Assembly: GCF_009193295.2 (NCBI RefSeq)
Contig: NZ_CP059973.1
Span: 4,340,001-4,404,000 of the forward strand
Reading direction: 5' to 3'
Source of the DNA: Bacteroides luhongzhouii
Lineage (GTDB): Bacteria; Bacteroidota; Bacteroidia; Bacteroidales; Bacteroidaceae
Length of the DNA: 64,000 nucleotides
Part shown: in pieces, positions 31,082 to 48,158 of the stretch
Layout: each line of letters begins with the position of its first letter
Position numbering within the stretch: the first letter of the stretch is position 1
The notes under the pieces: generated by a model
The model's input: the letters and a program-made list of their open reading frames with translations, nothing else
Databases searched by the model: none
What the model was told of the DNA's origin: nothing
Position numbers and translations under genes: made by a program

Positions 31082-31090
31082 TGCAAATCA

Positions 31091-31915
31091 TTATTTTAAA
31101 ATATTTACTAATAAGCTGACAATGGATACCAGGATAGAGGTTGCAGAGAACCAGAGACTGGTACTGTTACCTACATCTGAATTTCGAGCTTTTGCTTTAT
31201 TAGGAGTTACGTAGATAATATCATTCTGTTGTAACCAATAGTAAGGCGAAAGAATGGTTTCGGCCTTGTTCAAATCCAAGGTCACAATTTGCTGTTTGCC
31301 GTTTGCGTCCTCACGGATCAACTTCACATTATCACGAAGACCGTATACCGTCATATCACCAGCCATAGCCAATGCCTCCAACAAATTTACCTTCTCATTG
31401 GAAATAGTAAAAGTTCCGGGACGGGTAACTTCGCCGATAACCGATATTTTATAATTTACCATACGCACCGTTACAATGGGAGTCTCCTTCATGTAAGGTT
31501 TTAGTTTATCTATGATCAACTGTTCCGCTTCCCTTTTCGTTAAACCTCCTAACTTCAATTCTCCTAACACCGGAAAATTTATGTTTCCTTCATTATCTAC
31601 CAAATAAGGTTGTAATACAGGTTGGGTAGTCACATAAGACGAAGTACTCACCGCTATTCCGGCATTGCTGGCAACTGTCAGATTAAAAGGTATCGCAAGT
31701 TCAGGATTAGTACACGATACCACAATAGTCAACAAATCCTTGGGCATGATCTTGGCATCATACAATTTTTCCTGTTGTTCTACTTCGTTCACAACTTCCA
31801 CATTCTGGAAATAGGGAACCTTTTTATAAGACTGACAGGCAGCCAATAGGAATGGCAACAATAATAGCCACAAATTTCTCTTGTTTAGTCTTCTCATCAT
31901 AATTCTTAAATTCAT
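31091..31915 (-). CDS. Wza-like polysaccharide export lipoprotein
   Basis: A 274-residue outer-membrane export protein. It has a lipoprotein signal (LLLPFLLAACQSYK, lipid-modified Cys near residue 27), the Poly_export domain (DLLTIVVSCTNPELAIPFN...YLVDNEGNINFPVLGELKLGGLT) and one SLBB-like domain (ISVIGEVTRPGTFTISNEKVNLLEALAMAGDMT). A C-terminal hydrophobic segment (ATSILVSIVSLLVNIL) probably crosses the outer membrane. It lies 9 bp upstream of the Wzc-like gene, and the pair forms the trans-envelope channel. It is shorter than E. coli Wza, as is usual in Bacteroidetes. Confidence 0.93.
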   Translation of the reverse strand: MNLRIMMRRLNKRNLWLLLLPFLLAACQSYKKVPYFQNVEVVNEVEQQEKLYDAKIMPKDLLTIVVSCTNPELAIPFNLTVASNAGIAVSTSSYVTTQPVLQPYLVDNEGNINFPVLGELKLGGLTKREAEQLIIDKLKPYMKETPIVTVRMVNYKISVIGEVTRPGTFTISNEKVNLLEALAMAGDMTVYGLRDNVKLIREDANGKQQIVTLDLNKAETILSPYYWLQQNDIIYVTPNKAKARNSDVGNSTSLWFSATSILVSIVSLLVNILK

Positions 31916-31949
31916 AATTAAACGCCCTTTAATTCCTAAGTTTTATTTT

Positions 31950-33356
31950 TTAATATGCTTCTTTTTCTCCGTGTATGGCATTATACACCGTCTTATACAT
32001 AATATATAAGTCCAATAAAAAAGTCCAATGCTCTATATACCAGATATCACGTTGCACACGTCCCTCCATCTGCCAGAGCTCTTTCGTCTCACCACGAAAG
32101 CCCGTCACCTGAGCCCAACCAGTTATTCCAGGTTTAACAAAGTGACGAACCATAAACTTGTTTATCAGATTAGAATATTCCTCCGTATGCTTTAACATGT
32201 GAGGACGGGGACCTACAATCGACATATCACCCTTCAGTACATTTATAAATTGAGGTAATTCGTCCACACTCGTCTTTCTCATAATCTCTCCGATACGTGT
32301 TTTACGAGGATCGTTTTCCGTAGCCTGAAGGGTATCACACTGCGCATTAACCTTCATCGAACGAAACTTGTAACACCAAAATTCACGACCATCCTCACCA
32401 CTGCGTTTCTGTTTGAAAAAGACAGGACCGGGAGAACTTAATTTAATTGCAATTCCGAAGAATATATAGACGAACGGAAAGACAGTAATAAGAAATAACC
32501 CCGAACAGACAATATCAAAAGCACGCTTAATAATACGGTTTTCTAACGACTCCAATGGTTCACAACGAATGGAAAGCACAGGAACATTACCCAATAACTC
32601 AAAATGCATCCTACGCTTCAAATAGTTACGAACATTAGGAACACTAAAAAAACGGACCAAATGGTTTTCACAGTAATTAATGATAGGGACAATCTCTGCA
32701 CTTCGCGCAGAAGGAAGGCTACAATAAAGCTGATTGATCTCTCCCGCATGTTTTTCTAAAAAAACACTTACTTCATTTGGTTGTCCCAAATATGGAACAT
32801 CCTGCGGATACCGGTCTGAAGGAAAATCCTCGAAATACCCCAGTACACGATAACCGGACGTAGGATCATCCGTCATCGCATGATAAAGTTCCTGCATATT
32901 CTCATGGCTCCCAACTAATACTACCTTGCGAACATTTCCTCCCTTTTTTCGATAAAGCTCCAGAAAGTGACGGGAAATTAGACGATAGCTGACGATAACA
33001 ATTATTAAAGCGACATAAAACAGTCCGAAATATCGGGAATGAGAAAAATGGAAATGAAAAACAAGCAGCGTACAAACCGAAAAAAAAACAAAAGGAACCA
33101 TGTTACGTAAAACACGAATCATGATCTGTTCGGGACGCACCACAGAACGATGAAGAATAACACCTGAATGCATGTTACAAAGTAAATAGCACAGAGTGAT
33201 AAGAATCATTCCTTGAAAGATAGAACCGCAATGAATACACCAAAAGCGGGTACCCAGTAACAAATTAAATCCCCATAAAAGCAGATTCAGCAAAATAAGG
33301 TCTCCTAAGAGAACCAAAGATTTTAGGACTTTGTTGAAACGTTGGACTTCTTGCAT
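31950..33356 (-). CDS. Undecaprenyl-phosphate sugar-1-phosphate transferase (initiating enzyme)
   Basis: A 468-residue polyprenyl glycosylphosphotransferase of the WcaJ/WbaP layout: four N-terminal membrane helices, a CoA-binding-like middle domain (about residues 140-255), a fifth hydrophobic segment (FDIVCSGLFLITVFPFVYIFFGIAIKL) and the catalytic bacterial sugar transferase domain with FFKQKRSGEDGREFWCYKFRSMK, KTSVDELPQFINVLKGDMSIVGPRP and KPGITGWAQVTGFRGET. It transfers the first sugar phosphate to undecaprenyl phosphate; glucose or galactose is usual for this layout, the exact sugar being unproven. Confidence 0.95.
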   Translation of the reverse strand: MQEVQRFNKVLKSLVLLGDLILLNLLLWGFNLLLGTRFWCIHCGSIFQGMILITLCYLLCNMHSGVILHRSVVRPEQIMIRVLRNMVPFVFFSVCTLLVFHFHFSHSRYFGLFYVALIIVIVSYRLISRHFLELYRKKGGNVRKVVLVGSHENMQELYHAMTDDPTSGYRVLGYFEDFPSDRYPQDVPYLGQPNEVSVFLEKHAGEINQLYCSLPSARSAEIVPIINYCENHLVRFFSVPNVRNYLKRRMHFELLGNVPVLSIRCEPLESLENRIIKRAFDIVCSGLFLITVFPFVYIFFGIAIKLSSPGPVFFKQKRSGEDGREFWCYKFRSMKVNAQCDTLQATENDPRKTRIGEIMRKTSVDELPQFINVLKGDMSIVGPRPHMLKHTEEYSNLINKFMVRHFVKPGITGWAQVTGFRGETKELWQMEGRVQRDIWYIEHWTFLLDLYIMYKTVYNAIHGEKEAY

Positions 33357-33375
33357 AAATGTTTCCTATGATTGA

Positions 33376-34116
33376 TTAATGATGATCCACAAGCGTTCCA
33401 TTTTTCTCTTTCAAGATATTCCATAAGAACAACATATTTCCTATGATATACCTACGCCACATCCTTTTCGGTTCTTTCAATAAACGATATGCCCATTCCA
33501 AGGAATGATCTTGCCAGCACTGTGGAGCACGCTTCACTGTTCCTGCAAAAAAATCAAACACAGCACCAATTGTACCTATATGACAATGAACATTTAATTC
33601 ATTCAAATGTACATATGCCCATTTTTCTTGTTTAGGCGCAGTCATACCAATCCAAAGCAAATCGGGGCTCACTGCATTAATAGCCTCTATAATCTTTCGA
33701 TTATCCTCGTCTGAAAATTCAGGCTTATAGGGTGGTGAATATGTTTCCACGACAATATTAGGATAATCCATAGCTGTGCGCTGCCTCACAAGTTCCAATG
33801 TAGATTCGCTGCTTCCCATAAAAAAGCATTTACCACCCTTCTCATTCAGTTTACGCATCTCAATTTCAAAGAAATCCCATCCTGCAATACGTTCCATAGG
33901 CTGACTTCTCGCCTTAATCCATTGACAAGCCTTCACTATGCTTGCCCCATCAGGGATCAAAACATCGCCATTCGTCAATGCTTCTGCAAATAAAACATCT
34001 TTCTTTGCTGTGTTGAAAGAATGTGCATTAATGGTGTTTATAAGCAATTTGCCATCAGGTAGTGAAGCCAATTCAGCTTTACTACCTATAATTGATAATG
34101 TTTTTAATTCAAACAT
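33376..34116 (-). CDS. WecG/TagA/CpsF family glycosyltransferase
   Basis: A 246-residue GT26 protein. Family blocks: LINTINAHSFNTAKKDVLFAEAL, VLIPDGASIVKACQWIK, KCFFMGSSESTLELVRQR, PDLLWIGMTAPKQEKWAYVH and IGAVFDFFAGTVKRAPQCWQ..LEWAYRLLKEPKRMWRRY. Members add the second sugar, often N-acetylmannosaminuronic acid or N-acetylmannosamine, to a lipid-linked primer at the membrane surface. It lies 19 bp before the initiating transferase gene. A uronic-acid donor would fit the nucleotide-sugar dehydrogenase encoded in the same locus. Confidence 0.92.
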   Translation of the reverse strand: MFELKTLSIIGSKAELASLPDGKLLINTINAHSFNTAKKDVLFAEALTNGDVLIPDGASIVKACQWIKARSQPMERIAGWDFFEIEMRKLNEKGGKCFFMGSSESTLELVRQRTAMDYPNIVVETYSPPYKPEFSDEDNRKIIEAINAVSPDLLWIGMTAPKQEKWAYVHLNELNVHCHIGTIGAVFDFFAGTVKRAPQCWQDHSLEWAYRLLKEPKRMWRRYIIGNMLFLWNILKEKNGTLVDHH

Positions 34117-34223
34117 AATCTTATTGAATAGTTAGATATTATCTATCAGAGCATATTTATTTCTTCCCCCTATCCAAGCAGACATTGGATAAATGGTGTT
34201 AGTAAAAGAACTGTTAGAAGCTA

Positions 34224-35318
34224 TTAGATTAGTTTTTTTAAAATATCTCTCATTCTAATTTCAAATCGGTATAGCGTAAATTCTTCGTCAAATTTTTTAT
34301 TTCCTTTCTTTCCCATAGCCGCCGTTTCCTTTGGATGGTTAATCATCCACTCCAAACATTCTGCTAAATCTTTTGATGATTGTCTATTTACCAACCAACC
34401 AGTTTTTCCATTCTCTATAATATCAGAAATTCCACCCTCTTTTGTTGAAACACAAGGTAGCCCATACTGCATAGCTTCAAGTAGCACCAAAGGGAAACAT
34501 TCATTGAATGTGGGAAAGACAAAGATGTCTGCACTTCGAAAAAAAACATCTTTATCAACACCATACTTTTTTCCATTGTACATAACCAACCGATTTAGCC
34601 CACGCTTTTCAATTTCGGCATTCAAACGAGCAATATCTATTTCAGCCGTTTCACCGCCTATTAAATCACAAGCAAACAAATATCCTTTCTCTTTTAGAAT
34701 CTGTAAAGCATTAAGTAACACCAAAACCCCTTTACTCACCAACAAATTAGAAAGAAACAATAAGTGTGGAACTTCATTATGTCGTTCTGCAATAGGTTCT
34801 CCTGTCAATATCTCAGGAATGCCATTCGGACAAATATACACATCCTCACGTTTGACATATTTTTGTACATCCTGATATAAAGTTTCTGCTAACAGAATGA
34901 CTTTCAACCCACAAAAGAATTTCCTATAAAGCCAATTATCTAGTTTTCTGTCTTGTTGTGTTACTACACCTTTATTATGATAATGTGCCACAACTTTGCA
35001 ACCCATTATTTTTAACAATTGTACCACAACAAAGTCTTTATAAAAAGCCTTTCCACAAGCATTCGGCGTGACGTATATCAACTCTGGTTTTATTTTTGTT
35101 ACCTCCTTGATAATTCCACTAAGTAACTTTATAAACTTCCACAGTTTCTTTATCCCACCTTTACCAATATCTTGCAGATTCTTTGCCGTAGTAAGATTAA
35201 TGTAACGGCAATCAAACTCCTCATTTATAAGTTCACTGTCATAAATATACTTCCCCACCATTGCTGCACCGTGAACTGGTGGTGGAAGATGGAGAATGAA
35301 AAGAATTTTAGTTGTCAT
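34224..35318 (-). CDS. Glycosyltransferase family 4 (GT-B)
   Basis: A 364-residue GT-B glycosyltransferase. The N-terminal glycine-rich start is ILFILHLPPPVHGAAMVGKYIYD, and the C-terminal nucleotide-sugar half has PHLLFLSNLLVSKGVLVLLNALQIL and the EX7E motif region FVFPTFNECFPLVLLEAMQYGLPCVST. It adds one sugar of the repeat unit at the cytoplasmic face of the membrane. The donor and linkage cannot be told from sequence. The preceding gap (34117-34223) holds no gene. Confidence 0.92.
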   Translation of the reverse strand: MTTKILFILHLPPPVHGAAMVGKYIYDSELINEEFDCRYINLTTAKNLQDIGKGGIKKLWKFIKLLSGIIKEVTKIKPELIYVTPNACGKAFYKDFVVVQLLKIMGCKVVAHYHNKGVVTQQDRKLDNWLYRKFFCGLKVILLAETLYQDVQKYVKREDVYICPNGIPEILTGEPIAERHNEVPHLLFLSNLLVSKGVLVLLNALQILKEKGYLFACDLIGGETAEIDIARLNAEIEKRGLNRLVMYNGKKYGVDKDVFFRSADIFVFPTFNECFPLVLLEAMQYGLPCVSTKEGGISDIIENGKTGWLVNRQSSKDLAECLEWMINHPKETAAMGKKGNKKFDEEFTLYRFEIRMRDILKKLI

Positions 35319-35483
35319 ATATTCCTATTCATTATGATAGGTACTCACCACGTGGCTATAATACCTCTACCGGTATCATAGCCCATTTTGAGTCATATTT
35401 CTGATTAATAATTTAAGTTATTTTGTAATATTCATCAGCAGAAGTTCTATACAGCAAGTCCCTACATGAAATATACAATTTTA

Positions 35484-36635
35484 TTACCGAATTGATTTAC
35501 AGTCTATTTCAAACTGGGATACTAATGCTTTATAACTATATTTATTTCGCATTCTTACCGTATCTTTCTTATAAGCGTCATAATTCACAATAATCTTTTG
35601 AATAGCATTAAATATTTCATCCTTTCCCCCAGATTCTACATATTCACCATTTTGCTCAATAATATGAGAAGTATTGGATGTGTGCCTAACAACTAAAGGA
35701 ATCGCCGCACCAACTGCATCTTCTATTAATGTAGTATGATGAATAGGCCAACAAGCAATATCTGACAACTTTAACAATTCTAACGTTTGTATTCTGTCAC
35801 ACCAACCATATATGTAAACACCAGAAGTACATTTGGCTAATTCCTCCGTTTCACGATCTGTAAATCGACCAAATAATACCAAAATCACATTTGATTTTAA
35901 TTCTTTTAGTGATTTATACGACTCAATTAATGAAATAGTACCTTTATCAATACCCATTTTTCCTCCACTTACAAGAATAAAAGCATCAATAGGAATATTA
36001 TATTTTTCTCTTAATTTCTCCTTGTCTGAATCTATAATATCTATGGAATTAGTATCACAACCAATTGGCATAAGATCAATCTTTGATGGACATGCCCCAT
36101 ATACTTCTTTAAAATAGTCACATCTTCCTGGAGTTACACCATAGAATTTTGTCACCTTTGATTGTACTAGTTTTGTACACAGCCTCATAAGACCTCCAAT
36201 AACAAAAAAATTCCATAGTTTTTTGGGAGATTCATTTATCTTATCAGAATGATTGTCTATAAAAAAGTTTGTTGATGGATGCAATAATACATAATACCAG
36301 CATAGTAACATTGACGAACTATTTACACCGTGATGAAAAATTGCATCTGGTTTTTCTTTTTTTAGAATATCATTTAAGCCACTACAGAAGAATGTATAAT
36401 TAGCTGTAGTTATGTTAGTTAGTATACGATAAACATGAACATTACCATAATAATAATCATAACCTTTTTCTTGAATTTTTCGTATTTCAGTTTCTTTAAG
36501 AAAGTTCGGAAAATGATTTTTAGAAGTAACAACCACAACATCATGCCCCGCTTGAGTCATATAATCAGGAAGTAAATTGTCTTGATATCCCCAACCATCT
36601 ATATAAGCAACCATACATATATGAACTACTTTCAT
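35484..36635 (-). CDS. Glycosyltransferase (GT-B fold)
   Basis: A 383-residue glycosyltransferase. It has an N-terminal half with MVAYIDGWGYQDNLLPDYMTQAGHDVVVVTS and a C-terminal GT4-like half with FILVSGGKMGIDKGTISLIESYKSLK and IACWPIHHTTLIEDAVGAAIPLVV, where the EX7E-like segment is modified. AT-rich coding sequence like its neighbours. One repeat-unit linkage is presumably its job. The gaps on both sides (35319-35483 and 36636-36728) carry no gene I can support. Confidence 0.88.
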   Translation of the reverse strand: MKVVHICMVAYIDGWGYQDNLLPDYMTQAGHDVVVVTSKNHFPNFLKETEIRKIQEKGYDYYYGNVHVYRILTNITTANYTFFCSGLNDILKKEKPDAIFHHGVNSSSMLLCWYYVLLHPSTNFFIDNHSDKINESPKKLWNFFVIGGLMRLCTKLVQSKVTKFYGVTPGRCDYFKEVYGACPSKIDLMPIGCDTNSIDIIDSDKEKLREKYNIPIDAFILVSGGKMGIDKGTISLIESYKSLKELKSNVILVLFGRFTDRETEELAKCTSGVYIYGWCDRIQTLELLKLSDIACWPIHHTTLIEDAVGAAIPLVVRHTSNTSHIIEQNGEYVESGGKDEIFNAIQKIIVNYDAYKKDTVRMRNKYSYKALVSQFEIDCKSIR

Positions 36636-36728
36636 TTTATTTATTATTGATTATTAGTGAACCGCAGATAACAGTATCAGACTACAATGCATTTGCATTC
36701 ACTTACCTATCTACTTCCATTTTTATAT

Positions 36729-37997
36729 TTACAGACGTCCGTCTACAATTTCACGAGGCAACACCCCCTTAACATCATAAACAACACCACCATCTTTAAC
36801 AAGCCCCTTTATATCCAACTTAAGGAACTGCTTGTGTGCAACACCAAGTATAACAGCATCAAACTTCTCTGTAGGTAACTCGCTAACAATATCAATACCA
36901 TACTCATTCTTTACAGCTGTAGCATGTGCCCATGGATCATAAATAGTTATATTATTTGAATACTCTTCAAAAGTGTTATAGATGTCCACAATCTTAGTGT
37001 TGCGGATGTCAGGACAATTCTCTTTAAAGGTAATACCGAGAATCAGAATTTTAGCATCCTTAACCATTACTCCCTTCTTGTTCATGTACTTAATGGTCTG
37101 GTTAGCTACATATGCCCCCATTCCATCATTCAAACGACGAGAAGCTGACATTATGCGAGGAAGTACGCCATACACTTGTGCCTTCTGGATAAGATAGTAG
37201 GGGTCAACAGAGATACAATGCCCCCCCACAAGACCTGGCTTCAGCTTAATGAAATTCCATTTAGTAGCGGCAGCATCAATAACGTCCTGTGTGTCAATAC
37301 CCATAGCATTGAAAATCTTTGCCAACTCGTTCATGAAAGCAATATTCACATCACGCTGACTATTCTCGATGATTTTTGACGCCTCTGCTATTTTAATAGA
37401 AGGAGCTTTGTGAGTACCATTTACGAGAACAGAATTATAAACGCCATCCACTATGTTAGCAATCTCTGGAGTAGAACCAGAAGTAACTTTTTTAATTTTC
37501 TCTACTGTATGCTCTTTATCACCGGGATTAATACGTTCAGGAGAATAACCTGCAAAGAAATCAACATTAAACTTTAGCCCACTGACCTGTTCTACAACTG
37601 GCAAACATTCTTCTTCTGTTACACCCGGATAAACAGTTGATTCATAAACAACAATATCCCCCTTAGAAATAACCTTACCAATTGTTTCAGATGCCCTCCA
37701 AAGAGGCTTTAAATCCGGATGATTGTCAGCATCAACAGGAGTAGGAACAGCCACTACATAGAAATTACATTCACGGATGTCCTCAATGTTGGCAGTACAC
37801 TTAAAACTATGATTATTGATTGCGTCTTGAAGAAGTTCATCTGATACCTCAAAAGTTGCATCATGACCAGCCATAAGAGCCTCACAACGCTTTGCGTTCA
37901 TATCGAAACCAACAGTTTTGTATTTGGTAGAAAACAAACGGGCAAGTGGAAGACCTACATAGCCCAAGCCGATGACGGCAATTTTTATTTCGCTCAT
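36729..37997 (-). CDS. UDP-N-acetylhexosamine 6-dehydrogenase (TviB/WbpO type)
   Basis: A 422-residue nucleotide-sugar dehydrogenase. The NAD-binding GxGxxG is in KIAVIGLGYVGLPLARLF; further signatures are FFAGYSPERINPGDKEHT, the substrate-binding ASKIIENSQRDVNIAFMNELAKI and the catalytic Cys in LVGGHCISVDPYYL. The 'SPERINPGD' form matches the TviB/WbpO/VipA group, which oxidises UDP-GlcNAc or UDP-GalNAc to the uronic acid. The polysaccharide is therefore probably acidic. The G+C and codon use look somewhat closer to core genes than the flanking transferases. No UDP-sugar epimerase is in the locus. Confidence 0.93.
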   Translation of the reverse strand: MSEIKIAVIGLGYVGLPLARLFSTKYKTVGFDMNAKRCEALMAGHDATFEVSDELLQDAINNHSFKCTANIEDIRECNFYVVAVPTPVDADNHPDLKPLWRASETIGKVISKGDIVVYESTVYPGVTEEECLPVVEQVSGLKFNVDFFAGYSPERINPGDKEHTVEKIKKVTSGSTPEIANIVDGVYNSVLVNGTHKAPSIKIAEASKIIENSQRDVNIAFMNELAKIFNAMGIDTQDVIDAAATKWNFIKLKPGLVGGHCISVDPYYLIQKAQVYGVLPRIMSASRRLNDGMGAYVANQTIKYMNKKGVMVKDAKILILGITFKENCPDIRNTKIVDIYNTFEEYSNNITIYDPWAHATAVKNEYGIDIVSELPTEKFDAVILGVAHKQFLKLDIKGLVKDGGVVYDVKGVLPREIVDGRL

Positions 37998-38057
37998 TGC
38001 TTTAATAAATTAAACAGTTTTTTATATATATAGAATGCGTGCAGTATAAAAAGGACT

Positions 38058-39011
38058 TTATTTTTTTCGGTATTGTAAGCAATAAAGTATACGATAAGCT
38101 CTAAAAACATTACCTAACATAATATAAGATAAACAAGCAAAGCACTTATCTTTCAAATTCTTGGAATAAAAAAAGTATCTTATCAATTTCCAATTACAAT
38201 TTACATAGCATTTAAGTTTGTATTCTACATCTCTATCATCGCACATCTTTTGAATAAAAAACATTCCATATGCGGTAGTTGTAATACAACGCGTCCATTT
38301 GTATTTATATCTACCTAGAGAATCTCCATAATCCAACAGTTTGCGCACAACAAAAATCAAGTCTGTAATTCTCTTGGGGCTAACCACATGAGTAATGGAG
38401 CCATCGCGCATAAGATGATGATAAACTGGGTTACAATAATATCCAACTCTTTCACAATGAAATAATGCAATAGGAGTGAACAAAGAATCCTCATGTGTGA
38501 TGCCTTCCGTGAAATAGAGATTATTGTCTGTAATTACTGAACGTTTATAGATAAAATATGGTGCGCATGGTTCATATTGAGACCCAATCACATCTTTACC
38601 CGTTGTACCTTTTATCATATCATTAATCGTTTCCTGCCTTCCGTTATCTTCATAATTACAAAAATGCGACTTAAAACAAAATACATCAGTCTTACCGTCA
38701 AGAAGATCCAAAATCTCAGATATACAATTAGTCTCGGCCCAATCATCAGAATCGAAAACCCAAAAATAAAGCCCCTTGGCTGCTCGGATACCACGATTAC
38801 GAGCTGCAGAAAGACCTGCATTTTTTTGATGAATAATCCTGATTCTTGAGTCTGAAAAACTTTGTTCAACAATCTCAATACTTCTGTCCTTGGTTCCGTC
38901 GTTTATGATAATTAGTTCATAATCATTTCTATTTGGAATCAGCAAAGAAGATACGCATTTCTTAACATATTTCTCAACCTGGTAAACAGGTATAATTATT
39001 GACAGTTTCAT
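38058..39011 (-). CDS. Glycosyltransferase family 2
   Basis: A 317-residue GT-A glycosyltransferase: LSIIIPVYQVEKYVKKCVSSLL, ELIIINDGTKDRSIEIVEQ, GLSAARNRGIRAAKGLYFWVFDSDDWAE (the last part holding the metal/nucleotide DxD-type motif) and THEDSLFTPIALF. The C-terminal third is helical and basic and may touch the membrane. It is the third of three related GT2 genes in this operon, separated from the dehydrogenase by 60 bp. AT-rich. Confidence 0.92.
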   Translation of the reverse strand: MKLSIIIPVYQVEKYVKKCVSSLLIPNRNDYELIIINDGTKDRSIEIVEQSFSDSRIRIIHQKNAGLSAARNRGIRAAKGLYFWVFDSDDWAETNCISEILDLLDGKTDVFCFKSHFCNYEDNGRQETINDMIKGTTGKDVIGSQYEPCAPYFIYKRSVITDNNLYFTEGITHEDSLFTPIALFHCERVGYYCNPVYHHLMRDGSITHVVSPKRITDLIFVVRKLLDYGDSLGRYKYKWTRCITTTAYGMFFIQKMCDDRDVEYKLKCYVNCNWKLIRYFFYSKNLKDKCFACLSYIMLGNVFRAYRILYCLQYRKK

Positions 39012-39066
39012 CTTACTAATCTTAGTTTATCACTTTCCACATTCAAACAAATTCACAGATACTGAC

Positions 39067-40059
39067 CTATATTTGTCCTTTGTAATATTTGTGCCCATGA
39101 AATTTTGCTATTATATTAATAATCGTATCTTTTAGGTAAAGAGGTAATGGCATTCGGCATATTTTAAAAATCAGTTGATCCGTTGTTCCTAAGCCTTGAA
39201 TATCCAAAACCATATGTGTTATTTCCTTCAATAAACAATAGCGTATAGTTCGAGACAAATAATATTTTCGATAAAACGCATAACGTACAATCGTTGCTTT
39301 GTATTTAAAGAATTCATTTTTTGCCCATATAGCATATTCATTATATGGATGTAACCTTACCACCTCACAACGTAAATTATAAAGAATATCGTTGCAAATA
39401 GCCAATTCTTCATACGGTCTTAATTTAGTCATTAATGACCCTACTGTTTCCACATAATGATAATAAGCCACATTACGCCATGTAATGGAATTGGCATGAC
39501 ACAAAACTTGAAGAGTAAAAACTGCATCTTCACGAAGAGATATATTTTCAGGATAGCAAATATTATTTTCTTTGATAATACTCGACCTAAACATTTTATT
39601 CCAGCACCATCCCAATAAATCTTTTTTTTCCAAATAGTATAAGTTTTCGACAAACACATGCGTAGGATTATGATCAAACAGTATGGGTTTCGATCCTTGC
39701 AGTGAGTCTTTCATAAGCCCTTGAAAAACTATATCCGCCATACTTCCATCAAAAAAAGCCGAAATAAATTGAGAAGACACCCAATCATCACTGTCAACGA
39801 ATAAAATCCAATCTCCCAACGCTACTTTAAGTCCCGCGTTTCTCGCTGCACTTACACCATGATTCTTTTGATGAAGAACCTTAAATCTTCTATCTGAATG
39901 AGCATATTCATCACATATATTTCCAGAAATATCAGAACTACCATCATCAACAAGAATACATTCAAAATCGCTATAATCCTGATGTTTAATGCTATCCAAA
40001 CAACGACGAAGCTTAGACTCTACATTATATACAGGTACTATGATTGATACTTTAGGCAT
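39067..40059 (-). CDS. Glycosyltransferase family 2
   Basis: A 330-residue GT2 enzyme: VSIIVPVYNVESKLRRCLDSIKHQ, FECILVDDGSSDISGNICDEYA, GVSAARNAGLKVALGDWILFVDSDDW and SLREDAVFTLQVL. It overlaps the next upstream GT2 gene by 8 bases, so the two are translated in tandem. It resembles the neighbouring GT2 proteins in its first 110 residues and diverges after that, as expected for different acceptors. Confidence 0.92.
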   Translation of the reverse strand: MPKVSIIVPVYNVESKLRRCLDSIKHQDYSDFECILVDDGSSDISGNICDEYAHSDRRFKVLHQKNHGVSAARNAGLKVALGDWILFVDSDDWVSSQFISAFFDGSMADIVFQGLMKDSLQGSKPILFDHNPTHVFVENLYYLEKKDLLGWCWNKMFRSSIIKENNICYPENISLREDAVFTLQVLCHANSITWRNVAYYHYVETVGSLMTKLRPYEELAICNDILYNLRCEVVRLHPYNEYAIWAKNEFFKYKATIVRYAFYRKYYLSRTIRYCLLKEITHMVLDIQGLGTTDQLIFKICRMPLPLYLKDTIINIIAKFHGHKYYKGQI

Positions 40060-40990
40060 TTATTAAAAGCATATTTTTTATTCTAACAATAAGCATTTCT
40101 ATTTTCCATCTACACCTCAGATATTTCAAATCTGAAAGTTTCATTTTCTGCAACAAATCAGATAGAATACGATATTCGCCCTTTGAAAGATTTGAACGAT
40201 GCTCCCAAAGAGAATAAACCAAAAAACCATAAATAAGTCCTTTACAAACCCCATACATTCTTTCATTCTTTTCGAAGGAAGCCACAATTTGTATATGTTC
40301 AAAAGTGATACGAATTCTTTCATGAGGATTCGTATAAAAAACGCTCATTGCTGAACTTTTTCGAATAAAATAATTATAATGACCAATATTACACATTGCA
40401 TAGGTATGAATATTGTGCAAAATAGACGTAAAGAAAAGAAAGTCCTCTGATATTGATATCCCTGGAATAAAACGATGATTGCCTATAACCTTTTTTGCTA
40501 TAATCTTATCCCAAAGGGCCCTATTGGGCTTATTGACCCATAAAAATGCTATTTTATCCCATTTATCATACAAATGATTATGCACAGATACTTTAACCTC
40601 TCTTCCAGCAAATCCAATGCATTTATAAGACTTCTGAATGACATCAACACTATTGAGTTTAGATGGAATTGTTAGAAAATCGCTAGAAATACTATCATCA
40701 GAATCAATGAAGGCAACAAATTGACCTTGTGCCATCTCCAAAGCAATGTTCCTTGCAATACTTACTCCTTCATTTTTTTTGTGTATTATACGAAATCTTG
40801 AATCATTTTGGGCATAAATATCGCATATTTCGGGTGAGTTATCTGTACTTCCATCATCTACAACTATGACCTCAAAATCTTGATTTTCCTGATTAAGAAT
40901 GCTATCAAAACAATCTCGTAGAAATTTTCCCGCATTATACACAGGTATAATAACAGAAATGAATGGATATTTTTTATCCATATGTCTCAT
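40052..40990 (-). CDS. Glycosyltransferase family 2
   Basis: A 312-residue GT2 enzyme: ISVIIPVYNAGKFLRDCFDSIL, FEVIVVDDGSTDNSPEICDIYA, GVSIARNIALEMAQGQFVAFIDSDDS and SISEDFLFFTSIL. Its start overlaps the pyruvyltransferase stop by one base (40990) and its end overlaps the next GT2 by 8 bases. The tight packing supports one polycistronic mRNA. A second possible start is three codons on (MDKK). Confidence 0.92.
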   Translation of the reverse strand: MRHMDKKYPFISVIIPVYNAGKFLRDCFDSILNQENQDFEVIVVDDGSTDNSPEICDIYAQNDSRFRIIHKKNEGVSIARNIALEMAQGQFVAFIDSDDSISSDFLTIPSKLNSVDVIQKSYKCIGFAGREVKVSVHNHLYDKWDKIAFLWVNKPNRALWDKIIAKKVIGNHRFIPGISISEDFLFFTSILHNIHTYAMCNIGHYNYFIRKSSAMSVFYTNPHERIRITFEHIQIVASFEKNERMYGVCKGLIYGFLVYSLWEHRSNLSKGEYRILSDLLQKMKLSDLKYLRCRWKIEMLIVRIKNMLLINA

Positions 40991-42117
40991 TATTTAAAGC
41001 AATCAGCCAAATAATCCATTGCGCAAGCTCGCATATCTTCTATTCTCTTGTTTACAGGAGCGAAATCGATAGGCCTTAATATTTCATCATTAGCTTTCAA
41101 GTCATCAATCATCTGATATCTGTCAGGCAATCCCATTTGCTCCAAAATGGCTGTAGCTCTATCATCGTCAGGATTATGCATACCAATCCAATTATAAGAC
41201 CAAAATGGTCTATTAAAAAGAGATGAAAACAGAGTGCCATGGAATGACTGCGTTAATACGAGAGAAGCATTTTTCATTAGTCCTAAGAATGCCAAAGGAC
41301 CGGTGTATTTGTACCTCTTGATCCCATATTTATCCAGATGATGGATAGCATGTGATTTCAAATCAATGGTATAAACGGGCATACCTGTTTCTTCTGATAT
41401 TTTATGAATGATACGATTCGTTTCAAACCTATCGTAATAGAAAGCATAGTTGAAGATAAACTTTCCACCAATTTCTGGAATGGGCAAAGCTTTACACCAT
41501 TCTTCTGGTGACAAAAGAAGAGTCGGATCTGCAATGATTTTCACTTCACGACCAGACAATTCCTCTAACCACATTTTCCCATGCGGCTCACGAACTGACA
41601 AATGTTCAAATTCACTCAAGAGTTGCTTATAAACATTGAGGTCATCAGCTTTCTTTAAAATGTTTGTGCCACCAAGACTTGGAGAATAAGCCACCTTACG
41701 TACATCATGGGTGAAATTCAAATAAAACTCTTTACCAGCATCTGCACAGCACACGTTCCACACTTGGTCTCCACCAGCAATAATCATATCATACTTTGAT
41801 GCTATCTCTGACAATTCTTTTCCTGTCCGATAGTCACCTTGTGACAAGACCAAATGCTTATTTGAAAAATCCTCATATTCTCGGAAAGACTCCTTGAATG
41901 TTCTTAGATGAAACAATGTATTGAAATTTCGTTTAATGGAAGCTCGATTGATACGATGGTCAAAAAAGCCATACATATTCCGAGAAACATTATTTGCATA
42001 GTTAATGAGTTCACATTCATGATGGAACTTGTTTGCGATTACGTATTGCAACGCAAATGCCTGAAGCATTGACCCACAATTATGGGAAGCTTGAAAAGTT
42101 AATATTCCTATTTTCAT
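40990..42117 (-). CDS. Polysaccharide pyruvyltransferase family protein
   Basis: A 375-residue PF04230-type protein: KIGILTFQASHNCGSMLQAFALQYVI, YDMIIAGGDQVWNV, VAYSPSLGGTNIL, EHLSVREPHGKMWLEEL, IADPTLLLSPEEW and SLVLTQSFHGTLFSSLFNRPFW with the conserved His. It should add pyruvate ketals, or in some members sugars, to the repeat unit, adding negative charge. Its start overlaps the preceding polymerase-like gene by 38 bases, an unusually long overlap for the locus. Confidence 0.9.
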   Translation of the reverse strand: MKIGILTFQASHNCGSMLQAFALQYVIANKFHHECELINYANNVSRNMYGFFDHRINRASIKRNFNTLFHLRTFKESFREYEDFSNKHLVLSQGDYRTGKELSEIASKYDMIIAGGDQVWNVCCADAGKEFYLNFTHDVRKVAYSPSLGGTNILKKADDLNVYKQLLSEFEHLSVREPHGKMWLEELSGREVKIIADPTLLLSPEEWCKALPIPEIGGKFIFNYAFYYDRFETNRIIHKISEETGMPVYTIDLKSHAIHHLDKYGIKRYKYTGPLAFLGLMKNASLVLTQSFHGTLFSSLFNRPFWSYNWIGMHNPDDDRATAILEQMGLPDRYQMIDDLKANDEILRPIDFAPVNKRIEDMRACAMDYLADCFK

Positions 42118-43243
42118 TTGTAATATATTTTCTGTTTGTAAATAAAGCAGAATAAGTCAAATAAATCATAACCCAAGGTGCGATGCCAATAAAACTTTCA
42201 GAACTAAGACCTATAATAATGATATCAAGAATGAGCACAAAACGATTCATTTTGCTAATACATGAAAATGATTTATACATATCACTGTATTGAAACAATA
42301 TCAATGGCAAAGCTATTACCAGCCCTCGACTTAACATCAATGATACAGGAGTGCTTTCCACATATAAAAAATCATTTACTTTAAAAATACTTTCAAAATT
42401 TCCCACACCAAACAACCATTCTTTAACATCCATATTAAATACATAGTTATAAAGATAAAATCTGGTCATAGCACTTCCATCGTTAAAATTGCGTGTATCT
42501 TGACTAAAAAGCTTTCCTCCTAAATCGCTAGTGGAAATATATCCAAATAAATAAACCGCAGCTATACAAATGCCCAATATGAAAACAATATTTTGATGTT
42601 TCAAAAAAGTAAAGACTTTCTTAGTGTTTAAGACAACCATCAATAATAAACATATCAATGTAGAAATTATAGCCGCTCGACCATTAAAAGTAAATAACAC
42701 GACAAATCCAATGACTATAGACAGAATTTTATATAGACTACGAATAGGACTAACAAGCAACAATAACATAATTACACTAACTATTGAGGCATTATGAAGT
42801 GGATGCCCCCATATACCAGATGAACGAAATCTACCATACTCCTCAAAACGGTAAAATAAATTATTCTGCATAATATACTCATAAATACACAAAACAGCTT
42901 CAAAAGCCAATACTAAAAAAACAAGTACAGAAACTATTTTATATCTAGGGAGAACCTTATTGCAAAATTGTGGGATTAACATATAACACAATAATGTCAA
43001 GCTTGAACTTCCTGAATCTCTTTGCCAGACAACTGTCATCAACAAAAAAGAAACTGCCGTGAGTATTACCCATTTTCTATCAAAAGAGTAAGAATATTGC
43101 TTTCCATAAACAATAAAGAATAGGGCAATTGGCAATATATTTAAATAGTGATTATAATACACAGGAGGAACTTCGCTGCTAAATAAATAGCAGTTTCCAT
43201 ATATCATTACAATCAAACATAAATAAATTAATACTATTTTCAT
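42080..43243 (-). CDS. Wzy-like O-antigen/capsule polymerase (predicted)
   Basis: A 387-residue integral membrane protein with about ten hydrophobic segments and a large extracytoplasmic loop in the second half (about residues 240-285, 'STSDLGGKLFSQDTRNFNDGSAMTRFYL'), the topology of Wzy polymerases/O-antigen ligases. RSSGIWGHPLHNASIVSVIMLLLL resembles the conserved Wzy_C-type segment. It is the only polymerase candidate in the locus and would join repeat units at the periplasmic face. Wzy proteins diverge fast, so the call rests on topology and context. Very AT-rich. Confidence 0.82.
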   Translation of the reverse strand: MKIVLIYLCLIVMIYGNCYLFSSEVPPVYYNHYLNILPIALFFIVYGKQYSYSFDRKWVILTAVSFLLMTVVWQRDSGSSSLTLLCYMLIPQFCNKVLPRYKIVSVLVFLVLAFEAVLCIYEYIMQNNLFYRFEEYGRFRSSGIWGHPLHNASIVSVIMLLLLVSPIRSLYKILSIVIGFVVLFTFNGRAAIISTLICLLLMVVLNTKKVFTFLKHQNIVFILGICIAAVYLFGYISTSDLGGKLFSQDTRNFNDGSAMTRFYLYNYVFNMDVKEWLFGVGNFESIFKVNDFLYVESTPVSLMLSRGLVIALPLILFQYSDMYKSFSCISKMNRFVLILDIIIIGLSSESFIGIAPWVMIYLTYSALFTNRKYITNENRNINFSSFP

Positions 43244-43395
43244 AAAATATGTAGAGCACTAATAATTATCTTACTCCAATTACTCAACATTGGGAAATGC
43301 CGTCTTAAACAATGCCCAATAATATATATACTAATTGTTTATACATGGATATGGTGACCCATTCGCATTGTTCATCTCTGATGATAGTTCTTTAT

Positions 43396-44943
43396 TCATA
43401 AATGAATCTTATGAGCAAGTGAAATAAGTTTGGAAATAATAAGTGCCCTTTCTGATTTCTCTAAACCTAATAAATAAATTACGATTGACGTAGAGAACAA
43501 ACATAAAATCCCAGTAACAACTAAGGATTTCACATTATGTTCCATATGTATATATAGGAAATATGGTAATATTGGCGATATAATAGCAACTAATATTACT
43601 GGAGCTAGAACCTTCCTAACATATAATCCCAATGAAAGCTGCGTTCGTCGTTTCGCAAATAAAAGTTTAAAAAATAGGGCACAAGCTGTCATTGTCAATT
43701 GACAAATAAACACAAGACTCGGATTCAAATCTACTTTAAGAGCTAAATAGCTAACCGGTAAAACCATAAGCATGAGCAAACCATTTGTCATTTGATATGA
43801 TCGTATCTTCCCTGAAGCATTCACTGCATTATTTAACGGATTTGACAAACTATCAATCATAGAAACAATCAATATGATTTTCAAAAAATTCGCAGCATAA
43901 GCAGGCGGCGTCTTTAGCCACAATACTAAAGTTTGGTCTGTCATAACCAAAAAAGGTAATGATAGCAGAAAAACCATAAAAAAAGAGAACTTTGCACCTT
44001 TACAGATCAACGAATGCATATATGCCAAATCATTAGAAGCATAACTCTTTGTAATTTGTGGATTAATAGCAGTTTGGAAATTGTTGGCAAACTGTTGAAC
44101 GGCTCCCTGTACTTGTATTGCTATTCCACGAGCTGCATTTACAGCAGGACCAAAAAACACGTTCAACAGCATATTCAATCCTTGAGTAACACCCATCAAT
44201 GCTAAATTACCTATTAAACTCCAACTAGCAAACATTCCCATTTCTTTTATTTTGTTAGTATTCCAAACCCAATGAAAATGTGTCTCTTCAAAATGTCTAT
44301 TACTATATGACGAATATACAAAACGAATAATCAGACTGACTACCAAAAGAAGAATTGCATAAATTTTTAATTTGTCAAAAGGAGATATGTAAAGAAAATA
44401 TACAATAATCAATTTTAAAGCCGCTTCCAGCAAACTTATATATGCAAAAACTCCCATTTTTTCGTGAGCAATAATAGCTGCATTATATGGAACGCTAATA
44501 ATATTCACGAACATAACCAAAATGGAACATTGAAACACCCACATGGCAGCATCTCTGCGTTCTATTGGAATCACCATCTTTTCATATAAAAACCATAAGC
44601 CTATAGTTTCGGAAAGAATAACAATAATAAAAGCGATTATCAAATGTATTATCAACGATGTAGAAAATGTTATATTCAAAACTTTTTCGTCATCACTCGA
44701 CATATCAAAACTAAAAAAACGTTGTGTTGCTCCAGCCATTGCATTATTCAAAAATGCGAACATAGCTACCACACCACCAACGACATTATAAATACCATAA
44801 TCTTCTATTCCTAAACTCTGTAATATTATTCTACTCGTAAAAAGACTTATTGCCAATAAGAAGATCATACGGAAGTAAAGCAATATTGTATTCTTTGCTA
44901 TTCGCTTATTATCAAAAGCTTGAGACATATAATAATAGTTCAA
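43396..44943 (-). CDS. Wzx-like lipid-linked oligosaccharide flippase
   Basis: A 515-residue polytopic protein of the MOP superfamily: 12-14 hydrophobic helices, start 'KRIAKNTILLYFRMIFLLAISLFTSRIILQSLGIEDYGIYNVVGGVVAMF' typical of Bacteroides Wzx, and 'NVFFGPAVNAARGIAIQVQGAVQQFANNFQTAINPQITKSYA' in the middle. It moves undecaprenyl-linked repeat units across the inner membrane. It is the first biosynthetic gene after upxY. A downstream start (MSQAFD, residue 6) is also possible. Confidence 0.93.
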   Translation of the reverse strand: MNYYYMSQAFDNKRIAKNTILLYFRMIFLLAISLFTSRIILQSLGIEDYGIYNVVGGVVAMFAFLNNAMAGATQRFFSFDMSSDDEKVLNITFSTSLIIHLIIAFIIVILSETIGLWFLYEKMVIPIERRDAAMWVFQCSILVMFVNIISVPYNAAIIAHEKMGVFAYISLLEAALKLIIVYFLYISPFDKLKIYAILLLVVSLIIRFVYSSYSNRHFEETHFHWVWNTNKIKEMGMFASWSLIGNLALMGVTQGLNMLLNVFFGPAVNAARGIAIQVQGAVQQFANNFQTAINPQITKSYASNDLAYMHSLICKGAKFSFFMVFLLSLPFLVMTDQTLVLWLKTPPAYAANFLKIILIVSMIDSLSNPLNNAVNASGKIRSYQMTNGLLMLMVLPVSYLALKVDLNPSLVFICQLTMTACALFFKLLFAKRRTQLSLGLYVRKVLAPVILVAIISPILPYFLYIHMEHNVKSLVVTGILCLFSTSIVIYLLGLEKSERALIISKLISLAHKIHL

Positions 44944-45138
44944 TAGTAAGAATCAATAGTGGTCAATGCCCAATTTAGAACATCCCCTTCTGTAAGATAT
45001 CTTACGAAAAATTGTTATTAAATTCACTTTTTTACTATTGACATACTGCAAGAACTACATTTTATGTTTCCATAGTCTCAAGTTCCTAGCGTCGTGTGCC
45101 CTACTTATCATCAAAATCCCATCTTGTTATAATTGCTC

Positions 45139-45711
45139 TCAAAATGGAAGAACTGGCTCCACATACCCAACCGGCATATCCGCACAAGCACACCCCAGCA
45201 TATTCAACCGGACAGCAATCTTGCTTCTGCCATCTACTGTAACAAGTTCTCCTACAAGTCCTGTCAAAGGCCCTTTGACAACACGTACTCTTTCACCACG
45301 TGCCAAAGGAGCACTATTCATACAGATTGCCTCTTCGGAATAGTCGAGCATAAAACGGAAACGGGCCATTTGTTCATCAGGAATGATAGTCGGACTGCTC
45401 TCACCGCGCATTACCATATACCGACTAACTGTAGAAAAGGAAAGAACCTCTTTACGTTCTTTGGGGTCAGCGTGTACAAAAACCATCATAGGAAGCAATA
45501 CGGATTCAACCACTTTTCGGCGGTCGCTCCATTGATGTACTTCTTGCTGGACTGGTACAAAATTTTCAATCCCCATTTTATCTAAACGCTCGGCTACTTT
45601 CTTTTCATGATGCATACGGACCAGAGCGACATACCAGCGTTTAGAGTGTGCTACGCCTTCCCCTGTCCCAATTTTAGGCCCAGCACTTAAAGTTTCTTTC
45701 GTTAGAATCAT
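45139..45711 (-). CDS. upxY: UpxY-family transcription antiterminator
   Basis: A 190-residue NusG-like protein: N-terminal NGN domain (RWYVALVRMHHEKKVAERLDKMGIENFVPVQQEVHQWSDRRKVVESVLLPMMVFVH) and a C-terminal KOW motif (RVRVVKGPLTGLVGELVTVDG). UpxY proteins head Bacteroides capsule operons and let RNA polymerase pass the long untranslated leader of their own locus. It is the first gene of the operon. It is preceded by a 5' region that includes the invertible promoter. No upxZ, the usual second gene, follows; the next 195 bp to the flippase (44944-45138) are empty. Confidence 0.95.
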   Translation of the reverse strand: MILTKETLSAGPKIGTGEGVAHSKRWYVALVRMHHEKKVAERLDKMGIENFVPVQQEVHQWSDRRKVVESVLLPMMVFVHADPKERKEVLSFSTVSRYMVMRGESSPTIIPDEQMARFRFMLDYSEEAICMNSAPLARGERVRVVKGPLTGLVGELVTVDGRSKIAVRLNMLGCACADMPVGYVEPVLPF

Positions 45712-45732
45712 ACTTTTTTACCCCTTACTTTT

Positions 45733-45755
45733 CCGTTACTTCTTAGGTAACGGAT
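45733..45755. repeat. Left inverted repeat of the invertible promoter
   Basis: CCGTTAC (45733-45739), seven-base spacer TTCTTAG, GTAACGG (45747-45753): a recombinase-type core site with 7-bp arms. The 21 bases 45735-45755 recur exactly, inverted, at 46004-46024. Confidence 0.9.
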
Positions 45756-46003
45756 AAGGTACTCATTCACAGAAAAACAGATGAAAGCAGAAAAACATGG
45801 ACAGGAACTGCCTACAAAGATGTTTTTCTAACCTACGCGAAGGGAAAAGCATCTCTAAAACAGAGTACAGGAATTTCAGGCATGATCAAACAGAATCATC
45901 ATGTCCTGATATATTTTTGTTGCATATTTCAACAATTCAGAAAAAAAAGAAGATTTTACTTGTTTACTATTTGTATTTTTGCATATCTTTGCACCGAATA
46001 ATA
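45756..46003. promoter_or_regulatory. Invertible promoter segment of the capsule locus (OFF orientation here)
   Basis: A 248-bp non-coding AT-rich segment between perfect inverted repeats. It holds one good Bacteroides promoter: TTG (45960-45962), 21 bp, TATCTTTG (45984-45991), on the plus strand, so it reads rightward away from upxY. No TAnnTTTG match was found on the minus strand of the segment. Inversion would place this promoter about 50 bp from the upxY start and turn the locus on. Phase-variable capsule promoters of this kind are established in Bacteroides. Confidence 0.88.
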
Positions 46004-46026
46004 ATCCGTTACCTAAGAAGTAACAG
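46004..46026. repeat. Right inverted repeat of the invertible promoter
   Basis: A perfect inverted copy (46004-46024) of the left repeat, with the same CCGTTAC arm, 7-bp core CTAAGAA and GTAAC arm (the outermost pair differs by one base). It lies 40 bp from the recombinase stop codon. Confidence 0.9.
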
Positions 46027-46064
46027 ACACATTTCGCCCTTGATTTCTAATACTTTATCGTTTT

Positions 46065-47021
46065 TTATCTACCTAAACGAAAGTTCCTAATGTAAGATAA
46101 ATTCCCTTTATTTACCTCTGTACGTTCTCTTAGCTCAAACCCCTTCAAATAGATTTGCGTGGTTTTTATAGATTTATGTCCCAATGATTCACTAATCATT
46201 TCAATTGGAACTCCACGATACTTGGCTGTCGTTGCCCAAGAATGGCGGAGCGTGTAAGAAGAGACGGGAGAATTCAACCGCAGAGCTCTCGCCAAATCTT
46301 TCAAACGATTATTAAATCTCCGAAGAGCAGACTGATATTCACGGTATGCCCTTTCATCCCTCCGTTTCTTGTTACTGCAAAGTATATCAAACAGATAGTC
46401 AGGACAATCGGGAATGGGTTCCTTATTACTCCGGAGCTGATTAATCATTCCCTTGGCGGTGTCCAATATTTCGACGCTCATAGGAGTTTTCGTTTTGATT
46501 CGATTATAACGTAATACACTCTGATCTAAAGCTGATTTTTCCAAATGCGCTAAATCAGCGAATGACATTCCACAAAACTGGAACATTAAGGCGGCAATTG
46601 TTTGGGTACGACGTAAACGCTCCGATTTAGGATCTTCATACAAAAGTTTGTGCAATTCACCGGCAGGCAAAGCTTTCTTCTGCCGGACATCCACGCCTGT
46701 ATAGACATCATGAAATAATCGGGGAACATAAGGAGCACTCCCCGCTTCTACTCCCCGATTGTAAATACTACGAAGCATACGCATATACGTAGAAATCGTA
46801 TTAGGCTTCAAACCACACTCATAAAGATACTGGCCATAACGTCGTAAACGTTCTTTGGTGACCTGTCTGAACGACATATTCAACGTACCACAAAACTTAC
46901 TGAAGGAATAAAGGGCATTCTTATAGACATGAGCCGTAGAATAGCGCCCCTCCTTTCGTAAACGATTGATGTAGTTCTCCCCACATCGACTAAATCCATT
47001 TTTATTCATCATTTGCATCAC
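46065..47021 (-). CDS. Tyrosine site-specific recombinase (capsule promoter invertase)
   Basis: A 318-residue phage-integrase-family protein. A SAM-like core-binding domain (about residues 10-105) precedes the catalytic domain. Of the usual R-K-H-R-H-Y set, Lys (in IKTKTPM), Arg (YTLRHSWAT), His (LGHKS) and the Tyr nucleophile (TTQIYLK) are clear. The first Arg position reads FCGMSFADL (Cys) and the first His is Tyr, as in other Bacteroides recombinases. It sits immediately beside the inverted repeats, so it very likely inverts them. A start two or three codons later (MMNK, MNK) is possible. Confidence 0.93.
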   Translation of the reverse strand: MMQMMNKNGFSRCGENYINRLRKEGRYSTAHVYKNALYSFSKFCGTLNMSFRQVTKERLRRYGQYLYECGLKPNTISTYMRMLRSIYNRGVEAGSAPYVPRLFHDVYTGVDVRQKKALPAGELHKLLYEDPKSERLRRTQTIAALMFQFCGMSFADLAHLEKSALDQSVLRYNRIKTKTPMSVEILDTAKGMINQLRSNKEPIPDCPDYLFDILCSNKKRRDERAYREYQSALRRFNNRLKDLARALRLNSPVSSYTLRHSWATTAKYRGVPIEMISESLGHKSIKTTQIYLKGFELRERTEVNKGNLSYIRNFRLGR

Positions 47022-47150
47022 TAGTTATTTTTTTTATATATATACTATTTGGCGAGCGACAAAAGAACAAATCTTTTTGCAGGTTCAATTTCACTTTCCA
47101 GATATTATTCCCTAATTAACATTCATTAATATTGCAAAAATTAACTAATT

Positions 47151-47561
47151 ATGAGCAGTAAAAAATCTAAAAAAGGCAGTAAAAGCGACAAAGCAAAAAG
47201 AAATGTTCAAACAATGGAAAAAGCCCCTGAAAGGCATTCAAAGGAAGAAATCATCAGTGAAGAAGAGCTGGAAAACAGAATAGCAATCAGTGGAGATATC
47301 CGCCTTTATCTCACCATGCATTTGAGAATCTTTATCGATGGATATTTCCACCATCCTAAGAAAAAAAAGCTGATAAATCTAGCCCAATATATCTATGACC
47401 AAAAAGTATTATACATTCACAAGCATGGCGGATATAAGTTGATGGAACTTAGCAGTATACATGCTGAATTGGCAGCGTTGAAAAAGTCTGTTGAAGAAGA
47501 ATATATGAAAGAGAAAAAGGAAAAAAGAGAACAGGCTGAAAAGCTTAAAAGCAAGTACTAA
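47151..47561 (+). CDS. Small basic hypothetical protein with coiled-coil ends
   Basis: A 136-residue protein I do not recognise. It has a Lys/Ser-rich N-terminus (about residues 1-25), a central helical part (ENRIAISGDIRLYLTMHLRIFIDGYFHHPKKKKLINLAQYIYDQKVLYIHKHGGYKLMEL) and a charged C-terminal coiled coil (SVEEEYMKEKKEKREQAEKLKSKY). No signal peptide or membrane helix. Its overall charge suggests nucleic-acid binding, but that is only inference. It is transcribed divergently from the recombinase. Confidence 0.7.
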   Translation: MSSKKSKKGSKSDKAKRNVQTMEKAPERHSKEEIISEEELENRIAISGDIRLYLTMHLRIFIDGYFHHPKKKKLINLAQYIYDQKVLYIHKHGGYKLMELSSIHAELAALKKSVEEEYMKEKKEKREQAEKLKSKY

Positions 47562-47571
47562 GAAAAAAATA

Positions 47572-47676
47572 ATGGGACAGTTGAAATATATGGCTTACCT
47601 TCGCCGCCGTTTTCAACCGGTTGGAAAACAACAAGAATTTCTCTCAAAAAATAGTGACGGTATGCTGTTGTCATAG
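47572..47676 (+). CDS. Possible 34-residue peptide ending in a long inverted repeat
   Basis: A short ORF (MGQLKYMAYLRRRFQPVGKQ..., 34 codons) starts 10 bp after the preceding gene and terminates inside the left arm of the 35-bp inverted repeat. It is basic with no recognisable domain. There is little evidence beyond spacing, so it may be a chance ORF. Confidence 0.3.
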   Translation: MGQLKYMAYLRRRFQPVGKQQEFLSKNSDGMLLS

Positions 47677-48135: not shown

Positions 48136-48158
48136 TTTATAATGAAAAATATTGAACT

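Follow-up and report, generated by a model that had tools for sequence, protein, structure and literature searches.

Does the short region between the first gene of a capsule operon and a neighboring tyrosine recombinase gene in Bacteroides luhongzhouii serve as an invertible promoter and, if so, in which state is it found? The region lies within a 64,000-nucleotide stretch of contig NZ_CP059973.1 (positions 4,340,001 to 4,404,000), here called the window, and the sequence-only reading had proposed that perfect 21-bp inverted repeats enclose a phase-variable capsule promoter there. The repeats were reproduced at 45735-45755 and 46004-46024 as exact inverted copies 248 bp apart, with an outer span (45735-46024) of 290 bp; when extended to 45732-45755 and 46004-46027, they cover 24 nt at 96%. 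From base composition, ∼0.001 exact 21-mer inverted pairs would be expected by chance per 64 kb. The window contains 18 overlapping exact 21-mer inverted matches in four clusters (8376/62745, 45735/46004, 47651/47701 and 50451/50455), and the three clusters elsewhere comprise two tight hairpins or palindromes and one distant pair. The distant pair is an exact inverted match of 23 bases (8376-8398 and 62745-62767). A 35-bp inverted repeat (97% complementary, with a 9-nt spacer) is found at 47651-47729 after a DUF4119 gene and is perhaps a terminator or a small palindromic element.

Table 1. Features of the candidate switch and its surroundings (window coordinates; strand is a dot where none applies)
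Feature	Position	Strand	Basis or description
Capsule operon, upxY to Wzc-like kinase	28643..45711	-	17.07 kb; gene content
upxY, NusG-like antiterminator, first capsule operon gene	45139..45711	-	NF033644, 176 bits (cut-off 100)
Leader between site and upxY start	45712..45732	-	GGGGTAAA 8 nt past site
upxY-side recombination site	45733..45753	.	CCGTTAC-TTCTTAG-GTAACGG; 7-bp arms perfectly palindromic, 7-bp core
Segment between sites, predicted to invert	45754..46005	.	Site pair, promoter direction, relatives
Hairpin inside segment	45877..45908	.	Same place in 15 aligned OFF-oriented segments
Promoter -7 box TATCTTTG	45984..45991	+	14 bp from right (recombinase-side) site; directed away from operon
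Recombinase-side recombination site	46006..46026	.	CCGTTAC-CTAAGAA-GTAACAG; inverted relative to upxY-side site
Linked tyrosine recombinase	46065..47021	-	PF00589, PF13102

The features of the locus are given in Table 1. An architecture of 7-bp arms around a 7-base core had been ascribed to both repeats. The left copy was found as described, but the outer arm of the right copy, GTAACAG, is one base off, and its arms thus form an imperfect palindrome. Placement of the segment between upxY and a tyrosine recombinase gene was borne out by profile matches, those to PF00589 and PF13102 establishing the identity of the recombinase. The 17-kb operon led by upxY could likewise be traced, and between upxY and the flippase gene there is no minus-strand frame of at least 100 aa in the window. 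In the leader, the offset of 8 nt between site and motif recurs in 63 of the 65 loci that have the motif, among 80 loci examined.

The segment had been described as promoter-bearing and free of genes, and this description holds: a -7 box is present, and no open frame of at least 100 aa lies inside, a 97-aa frame spanning the right end. Bacteroides promoters follow a -33/-7 consensus. Here, the -33 element is weak (CTTG at 45959-45962, a 3/4 match to TTTG), and a promoter pattern scan found no exact -33/-7 match in the segment; an exact TTTG-N-TAnnTTTG match is present at the other three capsule switches of the same genome, which are described below. A sigma-70 scan was also performed and gave 8 promoter-like matches against 7.5 expected, making it uninformative for Bacteroides promoters, and nothing in Rfam matched within 44500-48500. 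Given that the operon lies on the minus strand and the promoter on the plus strand, the switch is OFF as assembled, an orientation that the sequence-only reading did not mention. In this state, transcription from the promoter (45984-46065 region) would enter the recombinase gene from its 3′ end; the predicted product is an antisense recombinase transcript, which could stabilize the OFF state. The hairpin inside the segment shows both-side changes at two outer and two inner pairs across the 15 aligned segments; as a possible insulator or terminator, it could shield upxY from recombinase transcription.

To place the locus among its relatives, recombinase matches at E ≤ 1e-100 were collected from 158 genus genomes; they amount to 84 loci in 21 genomes, that of the window among them, and all 84 loci were read. 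A site pair lies just 3′ of the recombinase gene in 80 of the 84; the remaining four lack a usable pair, the locus running into a contig end (L110), having no pair (L118), having a shorter pair at the spacing cut (L125) or having a single site (L127). The core is TTCTTAG in 71 of the 80 site pairs. With a strict -7 box, 65 segments were scored as OFF, 5 as ON and 10 as unresolved; when the variant TATNTTTG was allowed, these numbers became 71 OFF (promoter away from upxY), 7 ON (toward upxY) and 2 unresolved. The comparison of strains that had been suggested for this locus thus reveals both orientations at loci of its type, in addition to conservation of the sites, recombinase and promoter. 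Once flipped, the 7 ON segments align with their respective closest OFF segments at 96.9, 96.8, 95.3, 92.3, 88.2, 81.5 and 76.4% identity, versus 52-56% in the unflipped direction. One of these (L131) is the flipped counterpart, at 95.3%, of the segment at 4.86 Mb in the B. luhongzhouii genome. As judged from these alignments, the flipped matches offer direct evidence of inversion at such loci, as distinct from the exact locus in the window, whose closest copies (L066 and L067) are both OFF. A rule of at most one ON locus per genome was considered and set aside: the 7 ON loci fall in 7 genomes, yet 34% of random draws equal this.

The genome itself, a single 5.76-Mb contig estimated as 99.98% complete, was searched for palindromes, and six places with paired sites were found. 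Four share the core TTCTTAG (3.251, 3.610, 4.386 and 4.861 Mb), each with upxY and with a linked recombinase 68-100% identical to that of the window (68-88% for the three paralogues). Three further switches of the window's type, absent from the sequence-only reading, are thus present, and all four capsule switches are OFF as assembled. The other two places, at 2.027 and 5.388 Mb, have the core TTTGTAG and segments of 304-305 bp (L009 8927-9230 and L015 9029-9333), and a lipoprotein-like frame begins after each segment. The adjoining recombinase at 5.388 Mb is ∼41% identical to that of the window, and at 2.027 Mb, the match is limited to a 58-residue stretch. A lone perfect palindrome, CAGTTACTAAGCTAGTAACTG, was also noted at 3670901-3670921 (L012); the 18 kb scanned there contain no other site of this kind.

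Because the cores at the four loci are identical, each recombinase could, we infer, act at the other loci. It may then be asked whether inversion in the window is real but performed by a recombinase encoded elsewhere, for example by one of the three paralogues, leaving the linked gene dispensable. The similarity of those paralogues to the window's enzyme would permit this, and a single global invertase works in this way in B. fragilis according to the portion of PMC12632263 available. Against such an arrangement, a linked recombinase is present at each of the four TTCTTAG loci, and the pairing of gene and sites is maintained in 80 of the 84 recombinase loci. Action from another locus is therefore regarded as unlikely, although it is the most credible of the alternatives weighed here.

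The prevalence of the OFF orientation, in all four switches of this genome and in 71 of 80 in the genus set, might alternatively reflect a frozen switch, that is, relic parts with a recombinase inactive here and a capsule permanently OFF in the source strain. The catalytic residues of the recombinase bear on this possibility. The residues were read in 81 recombinases, namely those of the 80 site-pair loci (own genome included) together with L026. All 81 retain Lys, Arg-II, His-III and Tyr, and all 81 have Tyr in place of the first His of HxxR. The place of Arg-I is occupied by Ser in 48, including the window's enzyme, by Pro in 33 and by Arg in none. A similar Arg-I change is found in the CTnDOT integrase. 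Given that Arg-I is absent throughout, the case for recombinase activity depends on the behavior of the family. A missing Arg-I would suit an inactive enzyme, but the residue is missing family-wide, including at loci found ON; moreover, all four loci of the genome have an open recombinase frame (one reported stop falls at the match end), arms and core have been conserved, and closely related segments are found as ON copies. A frozen switch is accordingly judged very improbable.

The preferred reading, an inversion switch operated by the linked recombinase, can also be compared with published systems. A literature text search for the repeat returned one paper, PMC12118408. In the portion of that source available, a 20-bp repeat, GTTACTTCTTAGGTAACGGA, surrounds a 290-bp region before CPS1 of B. 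xylanisolvens, where long reads revealed an inversion; the UpxY genes of CPS3, 4 and 5 are preceded by the same repeat, beside tyrosine invertases, and CPS2 is described as having neither repeats nor an invertase. The same portion reports CCGTTACCTAAGAAGTAAC at CPS1, 3, 5 and 6 of B. thetaiotaomicron. The B. xylanisolvens switches thus share with the window the 20-bp repeat, a 289-290-bp region, UpxY as first gene and a tyrosine invertase, as far as the text of PMC12118408 at hand describes them. In B. xylanisolvens XB1A (L061/L067), the segment and upxY are 96% identical in DNA to the window, and no match to the window is found in the 6.9 kb after upxY at L061. The switch is therefore common to both, whereas the capsule genes differ.

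The global invertase of B. fragilis is Mpi, an enzyme of the serine type. In the partial text of PMC12632263, inverted repeats enclose a promoter ahead of a capsule operon led by upxY, a likeness of layout; that text describes one trans-acting invertase, whereas in the B. luhongzhouii genome each of four loci has its own linked tyrosine recombinase. Switches of this kind are presented as common among gut Bacteroides in excerpts of PMC12632263, PMC10939037, PMC10994844 and PMC7315117. The S-layer switches of the BT1927 type, for which the available part of PMC12118408 gives the repeat CCGTTACCTABVRAGTAAC, have the same arms as the window's sites, and the 2.027- and 5.388-Mb loci are similar to them by repeat and layout. 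These two loci differ from the window in their core, in their recombinase (∼41% at 5.388 Mb) and in lacking an UpxY leader. The window switch therefore adds to a published kind, the repeat and the switch type being already known in related species.

These data can be accommodated by the following model. The linked tyrosine recombinase would bind the 7-bp arms, and strand exchange within the 7-bp core TTCTTAG would invert the segment between the sites. A promoter directed toward upxY would turn the operon ON, and one directed toward the 3′ end of the recombinase gene, as assembled, would leave it OFF; once ON, UpxY would carry RNA polymerase through the long operon. We infer that the window's recombinase acts on the window's sites, that inversion takes place in the source strain and that operon transcription depends on this promoter. 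The reading is based on an exact repeat far beyond chance expectation, on four loci with a common core, layout, recombinase and upxY, on flipped ON segments in relatives and on the same repeat with inversion in B. xylanisolvens long reads, as reported in the part of PMC12118408 available. The phase-variable switch first proposed is thus supported by anatomy, by both orientations in relatives and by the published repeat, and the probability that the window holds a DNA-inversion promoter switch for the UpxY-led capsule operon is put at about 0.93.

A fifth UpxY match above the cut-off was found at 4.577 Mb (L146, 4571500-4581500; upxY at 5257-5823 of that stretch, minus strand), with no repeat pair and no recombinase nearby. 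Here, a promoter TATCTTTG points toward upxY; 14 nt on, TCATTGCCTAAGTAGCAATGG occupies the position of the site and is followed by GTGGGGTAAAAA and the start codon. By its sequence, the locus resembles a switch in the ON state whose site is altered but still palindromic. Among the matches listed, an UpxY set of 30 loci (L148-L177) was assembled, which includes close orthologues (L148-L159) in 12 genomes (own included) with 87-100% UpxY identity and a promoter toward upxY. An inverted partner is absent from 12/12 fixed loci within 1.46 kb upstream, the best candidates having 7-10 mismatches, as in shuffled sequence, and no recombinase match lies within ∼1.5 kb to the left or right. Of 16 loci scanned with the leader pattern, 12 were recovered, and L154, L159, L163 and L176 were missed.

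Paired changes were then counted in 15 aligned leaders, namely 11 of the 12 close orthologues and four loci picked for a visible hairpin (L163, L168, L170 and L176). L149 was left out because its site stretch is identical to that of L148; L160-L162, L164-L167 and L173 have an ordinary invertible-type site and were not included; and L169, L171, L172, L174, L175 and L177 were omitted for an unclear start or motif, so that the hairpin may be missing there. Homology was the sole basis for choosing the 11 distinct orthologues; among these, pairing is seen in 94.7% of 75 cells and a double change occurs at 4 of 7 pairs. The paired fraction, the double-change cells and the covariation score were each reached in 0/500 shuffles, the double-change pair count was equaled in 52/500, and pairing with a sliding partner did not exceed 61.8%. 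Across all 15 leaders, the four picked by eye included, 95.1% of 103 cells pair, with double changes at 5/7 pairs (0/500 shuffles). Kinship of the sequences inflates counts of paired changes, and these counts come from a short alignment. Folding of individual leaders gives modest scores (z of -2.4 for the window's ON leader and -0.6 for the genome's fixed leader). Retention of the palindrome through changes in both arms is read as a sign of selection for a leader hairpin. UpxY uses nascent hairpins. Most simply, UpxY would act on this one and, if so, the upxY-side recombination site would double as an element of the leader: when the switch is ON, this site may be transcribed as a hairpin near the mRNA 5′ end, 8 nt before GGGGTAAA. 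Pairing of the mRNA 5′ end with GGGGU was considered as well and dropped, as it occurs in the window's leader and some fixed leaders, not all.

The partnerless palindrome with paired changes in the fixed UpxY leader raises the question of whether the palindromes of the window might themselves be regulatory elements, either protein binding sites or leader hairpins, with a segment that does not invert. That account is scarcely credible given that inverted pairs with matching cores adjoin a recombinase, that segments occur in both orientations and that inversion with the same repeat is already reported in the accessible part of PMC12118408. At invertible loci, the arms were compared between the two sites in 66 loci with the leader motif and 14 without it. 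In the 66, the outermost pair is Watson-Crick at 64 upxY-side sites versus 32 of the other sites, and the second pair at 55 versus 26; when G-U is admitted, the second pair gives 57 versus 63, the wrong way. The asymmetry of the outermost pair is also seen in the 14 motif-free loci (14 upxY-side versus 9 other) and so is not special to upxY leaders. Evidence from these alignments for a leader hairpin at invertible loci is thus mixed.

UpxZ is often the second gene in B. fragilis, as far as the source text at hand describes it, whereas UpxZ (PF06603) gave 0 matches in the genome of the window, where a very divergent UpxZ is possible. PF06603 matches occur in 38 of 157 genus genomes. Of the 21 recombinase genomes, 9 have a match; the 12 that lack one coincide with the 12 found, among the matches listed, to carry the fixed orthologue. 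One genome (G013) has both UpxZ and a fixed-looking locus (L163). The overlap of UpxZ absence with the fixed locus may represent one event in one clade. In genomes without a recognizable UpxZ, the role of UpxZ cross-inhibition may be filled by a fixed capsule together with switches that are mostly OFF.

Sequence exchange between capsule loci of one genome is also indicated. The loci at 3.251 Mb (L010, near 3251278) and 4.861 Mb (L014, near 4861409) are identical from 24 bases before the upxY-side site end to 602 after it, then 75-99% identical per 150-base bin to ∼5.5 kb; on the other side, identity is 55-69%, and the segments and recombinases differ. Among 77 of the 80 loci (short flanks being left out), upxY ends at least 95% identical were found in 18 of 127 same-genome pairs versus 14 of 2722 between-genome pairs. 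Homologous gene conversion explains this identity in same-genome pairs; for the pairs in G003 and G012, upxY is more similar than the site with its first 60 bases, so that ordinary gene conversion suffices there. For the 3.251/4.861-Mb pair, a crossover within the site is also possible. The shared sites may be points at which capsule loci of one genome exchange upxY ends. The joint proposal, in which the site is a leader hairpin aiding UpxY loading, a capsule locus in one Bacteroides group lost its recombinase and partner site and became locked ON while compensatory changes preserved the hairpin, a fixed capsule and mostly-OFF switches replace UpxZ cross-inhibition, and the sites are exchange points for upxY ends, is held tentatively, at slightly less than an even chance.

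In summary, the switch extends a known route of capsule variation in gut Bacteroides to a further genome; as assembled, this genome has its four switches in the OFF state, and the promoter of one UpxY locus is fixed ON. Genomes with no UpxZ match would offer a natural test of single-capsule expression without the known cross-inhibitor. A literature search, incomplete on the nearest work, found no paper stating a double role for the recombination site, and the possible novelty lies in a partnerless fixed-ON UpxY locus that keeps the palindrome as a leader hairpin by paired changes. If the leader-hairpin reading is true, the same few bases would serve both DNA inversion and transcription control.
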